Below, in pieces: positions 42,296-45,738 of a stretch of DNA of 64,000 nt. The notes beneath the pieces are model-generated. The model saw only the letters and a list, made by a program, of their open reading frames with translations. It was not told the origin of the DNA and made no database searches. The stretch comes from Mycolicibacterium chubuense. Lineage in GTDB: Bacteria; Actinomycetota; Actinomycetes; Mycobacteriales; Mycobacteriaceae. The stretch is from positions 569 to 64,568 of the forward strand of contig NZ_JYNX01000036.1 of assembly GCF_001044255.1 (NCBI RefSeq), written 5' to 3'. Position 1 is the first letter of the stretch. Each line of letters opens with the position of its first letter. Made by a program: the position numbers and the translations under genes.

Positions 42296-42802
42296 ATGCC
42301 GCGTTCATTCGACATGGCCGCCGAGTACGGCGGCACGGTCGAACAGGTCCACCAGGCGTTCCGCGACGAGGAGTACTGGTTGGTGCGCCTGCAGGACTCC
42401 GGCGCCGACCACGCCACGCTCGACGACATGACGATCGACGCCGACGGCGGAATCCGGATCAAGACCACGCAGACCCTGCGCGCCGACCGGCTGCCCGGGG
42501 TGGTCACCCAATTCCACCGCGGGGACCTCAGTTTCGTGCGGGAGGAGCTGTGGTCGCCGGTCCGCGAGGGGCGGGCGACCGCGAAGGTCAGCGGCGCGAT
42601 CCCCGGTGCGCCGGCCGGGCTGACAGGCACCGCGGTGCTGGCCCCGGCGCAGCCCGGCTCACGGATGGCGTTCACGGCGACGGTCGAGGTGCGGGTACCC
42701 CTGGTGGGCGGCAAGATCGAGAACTTCATCGGCAGCCAGCTCGTCGACCTGCTGATCGCCGAACAGCGGTTCACCACGGTGTGGATCACCGAGAACAGCT
42801 GA
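42296..42802 (+). CDS. DUF2505 domain-containing protein
   Basis: 168 residues, START/SRPBCC-like fold: [84 protein letters not shown], and ending [33 protein letters not shown]2505 proteins are conserved in mycobacteria (Rv0481c type) and probably bind a hydrophobic ligand or lipid. Divergent from murB through a shared promoter. Confidence 0.9.
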
Positions 42803-42810
42803 GCTGCCAG

Positions 42811-43620
42811 GTGACCGGCGCCGCCTCCCGACCGCTCGGAGCGGTCACCCGCGGCACCACCGGCCAGAACCGGCTGCGTCGCAGCGACCGATGGCTGGTG
42901 CACTCCCCGCGGGTCCGCACCGCTGTGCAGAGCGCCGCCGACCCGTTGATCGTCGACCTCGGTTACGGCGCGCTGCCGGTGACGACGCTCGAGTTGGCGA
43001 TGCGGATGCGCCGGGTGCGCGCCGACGTGCGCGTGGTCGGGCTCGAGATCGATCCCGGGCGGGTGCGGGCGGGCCTGGCCGCGGTGGCCGACGGTCTCGC
43101 CCCCGGTGTCGACTTCGCGCTGGGCGGTTTCGAGCTGGCCGGCCACCGCCCCGTGCTGGTGCGGGCGTTCAACGTGCTGCGCCAATACCCGCCCGAGGCG
43201 GTGCCGGACGCCTGGGCGGCGATGCGCCGCGGGTTGGCGCCGGGCGGGCTGATCGTCGACGGCACCTGCGACGAGCTCGGCCGCCGGTGCGCCTGGGTGC
43301 TGCTCGATGCGACGTCGGCAGTGACCCTCACGCTCGCCTGCGACCCGTTCGCCATCGAGCGGCCCTCCGATCTGGCCGAGCGTCTGCCCAAGGTGCTGAT
43401 CCACCACAACGTGCCCGGTCAGCCCATCCACACGCTGCTCACCGCCGCCGATCGCGCCTGGGCGAGCAGCGCGGCACACGGCGTGTTCGGCCCGCGGGTG
43501 CGCTGGCGGGCGATGCTGGACATGCTTGCCGCGCAAGGTTTTCCGGTGTTCCCGCCGCGGCGCACGCTGCGCGACGGCGTCCTCACGGTGCCGTGGCCCG
43601 TGGTCGCCCCCCTCGAGTGA
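42811..43620 (+). CDS. Class I SAM-dependent methyltransferase-like protein
   Basis: 269 residues from GTG 42811, 8 bases after the DUF2505 stop. The Rossmann core reads LIVDLGYGALPVTTLELAMRMRR (motif I, DLGYGxxP), VRVVGLEIDPGRVRAG (motif II), RPVLVRAFNVLRQYPPEAVPDAWAAMRRGLAPGGLIVDGTCDELGRRCAWVLLD. The LRQYP motif and the C-terminal domain (HHNVPGQPIHTLL, FPVFPPRRTLRDGVLTVPWPVV) point to an actinobacterial family without assigned substrate. It is not present between the DUF2505 and nitrilase genes in M. tuberculosis. Confidence 0.82.
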   Translation: MTGAASRPLGAVTRGTTGQNRLRRSDRWLVHSPRVRTAVQSAADPLIVDLGYGALPVTTLELAMRMRRVRADVRVVGLEIDPGRVRAGLAAVADGLAPGVDFALGGFELAGHRPVLVRAFNVLRQYPPEAVPDAWAAMRRGLAPGGLIVDGTCDELGRRCAWVLLDATSAVTLTLACDPFAIERPSDLAERLPKVLIHHNVPGQPIHTLLTAADRAWASSAAHGVFGPRVRWRAMLDMLAAQGFPVFPPRRTLRDGVLTVPWPVVAPLE

Positions 43621-43694
43621 GGTGTCGCTTTCTGAGTGGACAGGTCCTCGCGGGCGTGCTGACAATGACTCCCAGGAGCCGGTGACCCCGCTCC

Positions 43695-43736
43695 CCGGAC
43701 GAGGTGCGTCGTACCCGGACAGCGACAAGACGACGC
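43695..43736 (+). ncRNA. Guanidine-III riboswitch (ykkC-III)
   Basis: The sequence CCGGACGAGGTGCGTCGTA, then CCCGGACAGCGACAAGACGA, matches the compact ykkC-III aptamer. A 7-bp helix pairs GCGTCGT (43706-43712) with ACGACGC (43730-43736), and CCGG (43695-43698) pairs with CCGG (43715-43718) to make the class pseudoknot. The conserved ACAAGAC segment is intact. Compared with the Thermobifida fusca aptamer as I remember it, the helix carries a paired C-G to U-A change, as expected of real RNA. AGGAG (43741-43745) begins 4 bases after the aptamer, so ligand binding probably exposes the ribosome site of the next gene. Confidence 0.9.
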
Positions 43737-43750
43737 GATGAGGAGAACTC

Positions 43751-44908
43751 ATGTCCGACGTACCCGAACGTCCCGACCCCTCCGTGACGAACGCCGAAGG
43801 CGCCTGGGCGCAGCAGGCCGAAGCGAAGCTGGGCGATCGCCGGCTCCGTGAGGAGATCGACAGAGGCCTGAGCCACGGGCTGGAGGCCGCGCCGTCCATC
43901 AACGACCGCACGATCTCGACGTTCGTCCGCGGCGAGAAGCCGCACTTCGCCGGTGAGCGCGGCACGTTCCTCAAATGCCCGTTCATCGAGGACGTCAACG
44001 AGGTCGACGACGCCGAGGTCGCGATCTTCGGCGTTCCCCTGGACGCCGGCGCCACCTACCGGCCGGGCACCCGGTTCGGGCCGCAGGGCATCCGCCGATC
44101 GACCAATCTGTTCGGAACGTACAACTACGAATCGGGCGTGGATCTGCGCGAGCAGCTGAACATGGTCGACATCGGCGACGTCTTCACGATCCCCGGCAAC
44201 CTGGAGAAGTCTTTCGACCAGATCAGCCAGGCGATGGCGCACGTCGTGCAGAAGGGCGTCATGCCGATCGTGCTCGGCGGTGACCACTCCATCGGGTTCC
44301 CCACGATCCGCGGGATGGCGCCCTACATGGACGGCAACATCGGGATCATCCACTTCGACCGCCACGTCGACACCCAGGAGACCGACCTCGACGAGCGGAT
44401 GCACACCACGCCGTGGTTCCACGCCACCAACATCAAGAACGCGCCGGCGACCAACCTGGTGCAGATCGGCATCGGCGGGTGGCAGAGCCCGCGCGAGGGC
44501 GTCAAGGTCGGCCGCCAACGCAAGTCGACGGTGATGACCGTCGGCGACGTCGAACGGGTCGGCATCGAGAAGATCGCGGAGATGGCCCTCGAGATCGCCT
44601 GGAAGGACGCCAAGGCGGTCTACCTGTCGTTCGACATCGACGTGATCGACGCCGGGTTCGTTCCGGGCACAGGATGGCCGGAGCCGGGCGGGCTGCTCCC
44701 GCGGGAGGCGCTCAACCTGGTCAAGATGATCTCCGAACCCGGGTTGGCCGGCATCGAGGTCGTCGAGTGCTCGCCGCCCTATGACTGGGCCGAGCAGACC
44801 GCGCTGATGAGCTCGCGCGTCATTCTCGACAGCCTCGCCGCGCAGGTCCGGTCCGGCAAGCTCGGCAAGAAGGCCGCCAAGGCCGATCGTCCCGCCTGGG
44901 GTCCGTAA
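43751..44908 (+). CDS. Agmatinase-family ureohydrolase, probable guanidine hydrolase
   Basis: 385 residues from ATG 43751, five bases after AGGAG. An N-terminal extension of about 85 residues precedes the arginase fold: VAIFGVPLDAGATYRPGTRFGPQGIRRS, GGDHS (176-180), HFDRHVDTQE (D203, H205, D207) and SFDIDVID (D295, D297). All six metal ligands are present (H179, D203, H205, D207, D295, D297). The usual FDAHxD reads FDRHVD, and the loop RMHTTPWFHATNIKN is unlike classical agmatinases. Control by a guanidine riboswitch argues that the substrate is free guanidine, split into urea and ammonia, as in the GdmH branch. No nickel-chaperone genes lie next to it. Absent at this place in M. tuberculosis. 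Confidence 0.88.
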   Translation: MSDVPERPDPSVTNAEGAWAQQAEAKLGDRRLREEIDRGLSHGLEAAPSINDRTISTFVRGEKPHFAGERGTFLKCPFIEDVNEVDDAEVAIFGVPLDAGATYRPGTRFGPQGIRRSTNLFGTYNYESGVDLREQLNMVDIGDVFTIPGNLEKSFDQISQAMAHVVQKGVMPIVLGGDHSIGFPTIRGMAPYMDGNIGIIHFDRHVDTQETDLDERMHTTPWFHATNIKNAPATNLVQIGIGGWQSPREGVKVGRQRKSTVMTVGDVERVGIEKIAEMALEIAWKDAKAVYLSFDIDVIDAGFVPGTGWPEPGGLLPREALNLVKMISEPGLAGIEVVECSPPYDWAEQTALMSSRVILDSLAAQVRSGKLGKKAAKADRPAWGP

Positions 44909-44922
44909 CTAGTCTGGAGGGC

Positions 44923-45738
44923 ATGCGTGTAGCCCTGGCACAGATCCGCAGCAGCGACGATCCCGCCGCCAACCTCCGCCTCGTCGAGGAGCAGACGCGG
45001 CGGGCGGCCGAGGCCGGCGCGTCGCTGGTGCTGTTCCCCGAGGCGACGATGTGCCGGTTCGGGGTGCCGCTGGGCGCCGTCGCCGAACCGTTCGACGGCC
45101 CGTGGGCCGACGCGGTCCGCCGGAGCGCGGACCGCGCCGGCATCGTCGTCGTCGCGGGCATGTTCGTCCCGTCCGATGACGGCCGGGTCACCAACACGCT
45201 GATCGCGACCGGCCCCGGCGTCGACGCTCGTTACGACAAGATCCACCTGTACGACGCATTCGGCTTCACCGAGTCCGACACGGTCGCCCCGGGGCGGGAG
45301 CCGGTCACCATCGTCGTCGACGGCGTGACGGTCGGGCTGACGCTCTGCTACGACATCCGGTTCCCCGAGCTGTACGTCGAATTGGCCGAGCGCGGTGCCG
45401 AGCTCATCACCGCGCACGCGTCGTGGGGCACCGGGCCCGGCAAGCTCGAGCAGTGGACGTTGCTGGCCCGCGCCAGGGCGATCGACACGTCGAGTGTGGT
45501 GGCCGCGGTCGGACAGGCGTATCCCGGGGACGAGCTCGCGGCGCTCGGGCCGACCGGGGTGGGCGGCAGTCTGGTGGCGTCCGCGCTGGGCGAGGTGCTC
45601 GCCGGGGCCGGCGCGGATCCGGAACTGCTGGTCTGTGACGTCGACCTCGACGCCGCGCGCAAGGCCCGTACGACCGTCGCGGTCATGCACAACCGCTCAG
45701 GGTTTGCTCATACCGGTAGGGCAGAATCGCTGAGGTGA
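44923..45738 (+). CDS. Carbon-nitrogen hydrolase (nitrilase superfamily)
   Basis: 271 residues from ATG 44923. The catalytic triad is visible: E40 (LVLFPEATM), K106 (RYDKIHLYDAFGF) and C142 (GLTLCYDIRFPELY). Further landmarks are HASWGTGPGKLEQWTLLARARAIDT and DPELLVCDVDLDAARKAR. The DKIHLYDAFGFTESD segment is shared with Nit-like deaminated glutathione amidases and omega-amidases. Rv0480c is the counterpart. Cytosolic amide hydrolysis, perhaps metabolite repair. It follows the guanidinase gene by 14 bases and could be cotranscribed with it. Confidence 0.92.
   Translation: MRVALAQIRSSDDPAANLRLVEEQTRRAAEAGASLVLFPEATMCRFGVPLGAVAEPFDGPWADAVRRSADRAGIVVVAGMFVPSDDGRVTNTLIATGPGVDARYDKIHLYDAFGFTESDTVAPGREPVTIVVDGVTVGLTLCYDIRFPELYVELAERGAELITAHASWGTGPGKLEQWTLLARARAIDTSSVVAAVGQAYPGDELAALGPTGVGGSLVASALGEVLAGAGADPELLVCDVDLDAARKARTTVAVMHNRSGFAHTGRAESLR

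Follow-up and report, generated by a model that had tools for sequence, protein, structure and literature searches.

Riboswitch-led guanidinases, enzymes that hydrolyse guanidine, have been characterised experimentally in cyanobacteria and in comammox Nitrospira (PMC12186494, PMC11410670, PMC8390497). In Synechocystis, the gene for GdmH (Sll1077; structures 7esr and 7oi1) is described as controlled by a class I guanidine riboswitch within an operon that also encodes an ABC importer and Ni chaperones (PMC12186494, PMC8390497), and the available text on Nitrospira inopinata places the guanidinase (9fek) in a permease-guanidinase operon under a class I riboswitch, with an APC-type permease implicated and no adjacent chaperone genes (PMC11410670). 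In the class III riboswitch, the T. fusca crystal structure identifies C6, G7 and G17 as the guanidine contacts (PMC5696562), and guanidine binding by this class is reported to form a pseudoknot, stabilise the transcript and free the ribosome site (PMC12186494, PMC5696562). The same RNA motif, ykkC-III, was reported upstream of genes annotated speB in 2010, and the available text of that report names neither a ligand nor a guanidinase (Weinberg et al., PMC2864571).

The locus described here lies in the window, the whole 64-kb stretch of DNA that was analysed, and consists of a guanidine-III aptamer directly ahead of a gene for an arginase-fold protein, gdmH (Table 1). The window protein is 60% identical to Synechocystis GdmH, has the same metal ligands and specificity residues, and is likewise led by a guanidine riboswitch; however, the riboswitch is of class III, the gene stands alone, and no HypA gene is adjacent. 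With the N. inopinata guanidinase it shares 62% identity, the lack of adjacent chaperone genes and a candidate permease of the APC type, but this permease is unlinked rather than part of an operon. As a whole, the observations are very probably best explained by a guanidine-inducible guanidine hydrolase gene whose divergent importer half has been lost and whose probable importer is an APC permease. The longer history, in which a divergent two-sensor module (guanidine-I with an SSF importer; guanidine-III with the hydrolase) was followed by a swap, in this clade, to an APC permease that is encoded elsewhere and whose family is associated with guanidine-I in other loci, is judged slightly more likely than not.

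The window locus is a known type of system, and the greater novelty lies in the divergent module of its relatives. The earlier note had implied more novelty for the window locus; its guanidinase reading is strongly supported, but the ykkC-III/speB link dates from 2010 and riboswitch-led guanidinases were already known. The literature searched, which included few subscription papers and was in part available only as partial text, describes no guanidinase in mycobacteria, no divergent arrangement of guanidine-I and guanidine-III and no SSF importer of guanidine, and none of the transporter terms looked for occur in PMC12508155. Two unrelated riboswitch classes with one ligand that share a divergent pair of transcription units offer a testable case.

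Table 1. Features at the gdmH locus, in window coordinates.
Feature	Position	Strand	Basis or remark
Upstream neighbour, 269 aa	42811..43620	+	no Pfam match; methyltransferase-like by eye alone
Presumed deletion junction, 16 nt, from stop TGA (43618-43620) to -35 box	43621..43636	.	comparison with relatives
Predicted promoter: TGGACA (43637-43642), 18-nt spacer, GACAAT (43661-43666)	43637..43666	+	sequence
Guanidine-III (ykkC-III) aptamer	43673..43739	+	RF01763, 63.8 bits
5' hairpin of aptamer region (43675-43681 / 43688-43694)	43675..43694	+	covaries in relatives
P1 pseudoknot, CCGG 43695-43698 / CCGG 43715-43718	43695..43718	+	sequence, invariant in relatives
P2, 7 bp, GCGUCGU 43706-43712 / ACGACGC 43730-43736	43706..43736	+	
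Shine-Dalgarno GAGGAG	43740..43745	+	sequence
gdmH, predicted guanidine hydrolase (guanidinase), 385 aa, ATG..TAA	43751..44908	+	identity, residues
CN_hydrolase (PF00795), 14 nt 3' of gdmH stop	44923..45738	+	

A guanidine-III aptamer leads gdmH

The Rfam search for guanidine-III that had been proposed in the earlier note gave a match to the full RF01763 model well above its gathering cut-off (63.8 against 36 bits, E 7.3e-11). Guanidine-III was the only gathering-level RNA match in the 64-kb window, and this was the only RF01763 match in the host's 5.95-Mb genome at E <= 0.001. The note had described a complete ykkC-III aptamer, and the covariance match bears this out: the 7-bp P2 helix, the CCGG pseudoknot and the ACAAGAC core are all present, and the distance from the end of P2 to AGGAG is 4 nt, as claimed. 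It had also started the feature at 43695, which is where the first pseudoknot strand begins; the full Rfam match starts 22 nt earlier and includes a hairpin, which in the window contains a single C-C mismatch. With position 1 placed by hand at 43695, the contacts C6, G7 and G17 of T. fusca correspond to C43700, G43701 and G43711. The window RNA is thus a member of the guanidine-III class, sharing with the T. fusca aptamer the whole model, the pseudoknot P1, the P2 helix and the ligand-contact nucleotides.

Covariation was examined in 22 aptamers (21 distinct), each ahead of a guanidinase gene. Across these, 96.5% of 375 cells were paired, compared with 36-47% when the partners were slid, and two-sided changes occurred in 12 cells, compared with 3.5 +/- 1.4 in shuffles, a number reached by none of 500 shuffles. 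The two-sided changes fall in the 5' hairpin and in one P2 pair; P1 is invariant over the 22 aptamers, and covariation is therefore uninformative on P1 either way.

Many of the 22 loci have a similar promoter-like pair of boxes 5' of their aptamer, with deviations in, for example, the -10 box of L012 and the -35 box of L025-L027 and L029. Transcription probably starts near 43673, and the leader would then essentially consist of the guanidine-III aptamer. The aptamer ends 11 nt before the ATG (43751), and 3 nt separate P2 from GAGGAG, a leader geometry that fits translational activation. Binding of guanidine would form the pseudoknot and triplex and leave the Shine-Dalgarno sequence free, so that the 385-aa enzyme is made, and would also be expected to protect the mRNA, as published for class III. 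No conserved anti-Shine-Dalgarno sequence was identifiable from the leader sequences of relatives and the minimum-energy fold. The candidate CUCC at 43691-43694, opposite GGAG, is not conserved, as many relatives read GCGCCC there, and in the minimum-energy fold the leader pairs with coding sequence, which differs in the relatives.

The 385-aa protein is a predicted guanidine hydrolase

Sequence comparison strongly supports the identification of the 385-aa protein as a guanidine hydrolase and not an agmatinase. In addition to its identity to the two characterised guanidinases (62% to 9fek and 60% to 7esr/7oi1), it contains all six metal ligands, as the earlier note had stated (H179, D203, H205, D207, D295 and D297), which are necessary but not diagnostic, since they are common to all six other ureohydrolases aligned. 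Guanidinases have been defined by T105, H222 and W313 of the N. inopinata enzyme, and E344 is mentioned in addition (PMC11410670); these residues correspond to T102, H218, W309 and E339 of the window protein, with the offset between chain and native numbering derived by hand from alignments. The alignment and the FastTree tree comprised 100 rows, of which 94 were guanidinases (the window protein, 91 loci and two PDB chains, with a few genomes occurring twice, for example as L020 and L125 or L030 and L141) and six were other ureohydrolases, including the three distant paralogues encoded elsewhere in the window's own genome. At the position of W309, tryptophan was found in 93 of the 94 guanidinases (the other has a gap) and threonine in all six others. 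H218 is histidine in 93 guanidinases and asparagine in one; H218 and E339 are found in all six other ureohydrolases and T102 in three of the six, so that these residues alone are not diagnostic and W309 is the sole published diagnostic residue that separates the window protein from all six. The FDRHVD motif, which had been taken to fit a different substrate, proved to be a mark of the clade: its R204 is arginine in 94 of 94 guanidinases and alanine in the six others. The phylogenetic placement that had been called for puts the window protein and both characterised enzymes in one clade (branch support 0.93), apart from the other ureohydrolases.

Two other substrates were weighed against this identification. 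An ordinary agmatinase or guanidinobutyrase, with a riboswitch that is coincidental or a decayed relic, would be compatible with a Pfam result of Arginase alone, with a score of 171.3 bits for the NCBIfam agmatinase equivalog TIGR01230, just under its cut-off of 174.3, and with the occurrence of T102, H218 and E339 outside the guanidinases, in three to six of the six other ureohydrolases. This identity was rejected as extremely improbable: the agmatinase score lies below cut-off, the protein is 33% identical to guanidinobutyrase (3nio) against 60-62% to the guanidinases, and W309 and R204 are both missing from the six non-guanidinases. Moreover, the genome encodes three further ureohydrolase paralogues elsewhere, and the aptamer is kept beside the guanidinase gene across the genus. 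It is also very unlikely that the enzyme acts on methylguanidine, aminoguanidine or guanylurea and that the riboswitch senses the same compound. Guanidine-III is reported to bind methyl-, amino- and ethylguanidine as well as guanidine, and agmatine with reduced affinity (PMC5696562), but the window protein has the residues on which guanidine specificity depends according to published work, and for the Nitrospira enzyme the available text reports urea as undetectable from methylguanidine (printed 'methylguanine') and very little urea from agmatine (PMC11410670).

As a guanidine hydrolase, the protein is predicted to be a Ni-dependent enzyme that converts guanidine to urea and ammonium, both reaction and metal being extrapolated from the two characterised enzymes. 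Urease alpha is encoded in the window's genome, and the host urease could release the remaining nitrogen from urea. Two HypA homologues are encoded on other contigs and none in the window; adjacent Ni chaperone genes are a feature of the Synechocystis type and not universal. The dN/dS ratio of gdmH is 0.02-0.11 in seven pairs within the clade that lacks the symporter (see below), indicating purifying selection. The protein tree groups the window gdmH with that of L012 (support 0.96), whereas nucleotide sites group it with its own clade by 40 to 14, and its dS to L123 is 0.37, compared with 0.22 for the neighbouring genes; this conflict is ambiguous, and no claim of recombination is made.

The closest named relative of the host is Mycolicibacterium chlorophenolicum DSM 43826 (protein 99% identical, DNA 96.5% over 6.1 kb). 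Next to gdmH, the CN_hydrolase gene is possibly a read-through gene and is not guanidine-specific. The 269-aa upstream gene is not part of the guanidine system; tblastn finds it at 5 of 13 sites that are empty of gdmH. The flanking genes include those that we take to be murB and deoC.

Relatives carry a divergent guanidine-I riboswitch and SSF symporter

In relatives of the window locus, the strand opposite to the guanidinase carries a guanidine-I riboswitch, approximately 190-320 nt ahead of the guanidinase match, which leads a symporter of the SSF family (PF00474) in divergent orientation. Among PDB entries, choline transporters are closest to this symporter in sequence; its family is a candidate guanidine importer. 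M. vanbaalenii (L018) is one of the relatives with the divergent pair. At the junction where the window has 16 nt, L012 and L026 hold about 1.8 kb and some other loci hold more. Five loci are without the symporter (the window, L011, L122, L123 and L124), and they share a short joint just 5' of the promoter. In a tree of five flanking proteins from 28 loci, rooted arbitrarily on L148 and with several weak deep nodes (43-77), the five form one clade with support of 100, nested among symporter-bearing lineages. The ancestral cassette at this site would therefore have paired guanidine-I and the SSF symporter, a predicted importer, with guanidine-III and gdmH in divergent orientation, and the importer half would have been deleted in the window's clade; given the nested position of the clade, one loss is simpler than an insertion of the symporter. 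Searches of the window's genome found neither guanidine-I (RF00442; E <= 0.001, with stricter filters) nor the symporter (E <= 1e-100). The idea of a hidden remnant of guanidine-I 5' of gdmH was rejected, as a permissive RNA scan of 42700-43800 with E up to 5 returned guanidine-III and two far sub-threshold microRNA models.

The earlier note had regarded the locus as an insertion relative to M. tuberculosis, and the comparison with genomes of the genus supports an insertion: the site was found without a guanidinase in all 13 genomes examined, chosen as ten without a guanidinase and three with one elsewhere, and in all 13 CN_hydrolase directly follows the upstream genes. On its 5' side the site is bounded by a conserved gene, either the 269-aa gene or one with DUF2505, and on its 3' side by CN_hydrolase. 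One empty site, L145, nests among full sites. In the reciprocal case, the guanidine-I symporter is kept and no guanidinase is found at E <= 1e-100, as in G084 (L139), G056, G166 and G168; the arrangement in G084 fits modular loss. Two symporter copies (G146:C1:5735062-5736579 and G263:C33:6660-8195) contain one in-frame TGA each.

Guanidinase genes and guanidine riboswitches across the genus

A survey of 297 genomes of the genus, with thresholds of E <= 1e-100 for guanidinase and E <= 0.001 for guanidine-III, found a guanidinase in 70 genomes, three of them with partial or distant matches (G044, G059 and G087), and a guanidine-III match in 170. Guanidine hydrolysis is thus predicted in about a quarter of the genomes sampled, and such genes would be annotated by default as agmatinase or arginase-family. 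These data place the predicted activity in environmental mycobacteria, and guanidine use as an environmental trait, which the earlier note had suggested, is plausible with M. chlorophenolicum as the closest named relative.

Features were paired by coordinates, using all 70 guanidinase and all 53 symporter matches, the 64 guanidine-III matches in guanidinase genomes among those listed, and 53 of the 83 guanidine-I matches listed (41 of 41 above cut-off and 12 of 42 below). In 36 of the 70 genomes, guanidine-III precedes the matched guanidinase start by no more than 38 nt; in 23 it does so by 115-149 nt. In 34 genomes the gene is flanked by a guanidine-I riboswitch with a symporter in divergent orientation, back-to-back with guanidine-III in 32 and with no nearby guanidine-III match in two. 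Adjacent guanidine-III alone is found in four (the window's genome, G019, G054 and G197), guanidine-III at 115-149 nt with no symporter in 23, and none of these features nearby in nine, although two of the nine (G158 and G235) do carry a guanidine-III match and may belong with the 23. Among 80 named loci, both riboswitch classes surround the gene in 17, of which 16 have the symporter and one, L037, has an APC permease instead.

While guanidine-III precedes the enzyme gene in the window, all eight copies examined away from guanidinase genes (seven from genomes without a guanidinase and one a second copy in a guanidinase genome) precede SMR proteins, which match PF00893 above cut-off and have SugE as their best NCBIfam model, below its cut-off. 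The genus thus appears to use this switch for export or for hydrolysis, depending on the genome.

An unlinked APC permease is the candidate importer

The window's genome encodes, on contig 59, an APC permease that is 89% identical to the one preceding gdmH in L125 (genome G184). Permeases at least 80% identical to it are found in 23 of the 297 genomes: in all four genomes of the symporter-less clade, in none of the 34 with symporter and guanidinase, in none of the 23 with a distant aptamer, in five of the remaining nine, and in 14 without a guanidinase. In G002, G028 and G184 an orthologue immediately precedes gdmH, and in G159 an orthologue is convergent with it. More distant homologues have a guanidine-I match in front, at 75.6 bits in L037 (49% identical) and at 62.1 bits, under the cut-off of 63, in L043 (58-59%). 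No guanidine-I or guanidine-III match was found near the contig 59 permease in the window's genome. The best NCBIfam model for the contig 59 permease, TIGR03428 (permease of the urea carboxylase system), scores 604.6 bits, below its cut-off of 740.45; the permeases of L037 and L043 are below it as well, at 614.2 and 610.9 bits. Several such 'urea carboxylases' have later been shown to prefer guanidine (PMC12186494).

Over the 297 genomes, symporter and APC permease do not overlap at all (42 against 23 genomes, p 0.026, with kinship ignored; the 42 exclude the partial G052 and ten at 48-50% identity). For the clade, the Fisher p of 1.4e-5 overstates the exclusion of symporter and APC permease, because this represents one evolutionary event. 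Taken together, these sequence data make it probable that the importer was swapped in the window's clade, from the SSF symporter to the unlinked APC permease, and that the latter carries out import there.

The alternative is that gdmH only detoxifies guanidine formed inside the cell, with no dedicated importer in the clade and an APC permease that has nothing to do with guanidine. In its favour, the locus lacks the symporter half through deletion, and no SugE-like exporter was found in the genome, whose two SMR matches score 25.5 and 23.7 bits for SugE. At the threshold applied, 14 of the 23 genomes that encode the APC permease lack a guanidinase, so the permease may carry something else, and 23 guanidinase genomes have neither transporter. 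However, four other genomes of the genus have this permease next to gdmH, and homologues are preceded by a guanidine-I aptamer; purely internal detoxification is judged unlikely, though worth serious consideration. The importer swap, if true, would be a natural exchange of one importer for a non-homologous one, with enzyme and sensor left as they were.

Additional observations

In the window's genome, two SMR genes are adjacent at G000:C31:269755-270378 (L142); they are not SugE-like and have no guanidine-III match. A divergent gene of the DUF294 family accompanies the contig 59 permease, and relatives of this gene are found next to the permeases linked to gdmH in L125 and L049; at L165:6715-7764 (-) the gene is nucleotidyltransferase-like, with DUF294/DUF294_C, and is divergent to the APC permease. 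With 33-62 bits, 42 of the 83 guanidine-I matches listed in the genus fall short of the cut-off of 63; they may represent ykkC variants that bind different ligands.

L126-L129, which are four of the 23 genomes with a distant aptamer, represent a second mycobacterial guanidinase locus, 84-86% identical. Here some 110-115 nt separate the aptamer from the ATG, and the riboswitch class has another expression platform; in L126-L128, a GGATGCC/GGCATCC pairing between aptamer and ATG is possible. Distant aptamers also occur in Streptomyces (L039) and Cellulomonas (L041). In another Streptomyces guanidinase locus, guanidine-III lies on the opposite strand, toward a divergent gene (L040:3727-3792 (-)). 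In a Myxococcales MAG, guanidine-II (L034:5469-5513) lies downstream of a guanidinase that is 82% identical, and classes I, II and III thus all occur around the guanidinase family.
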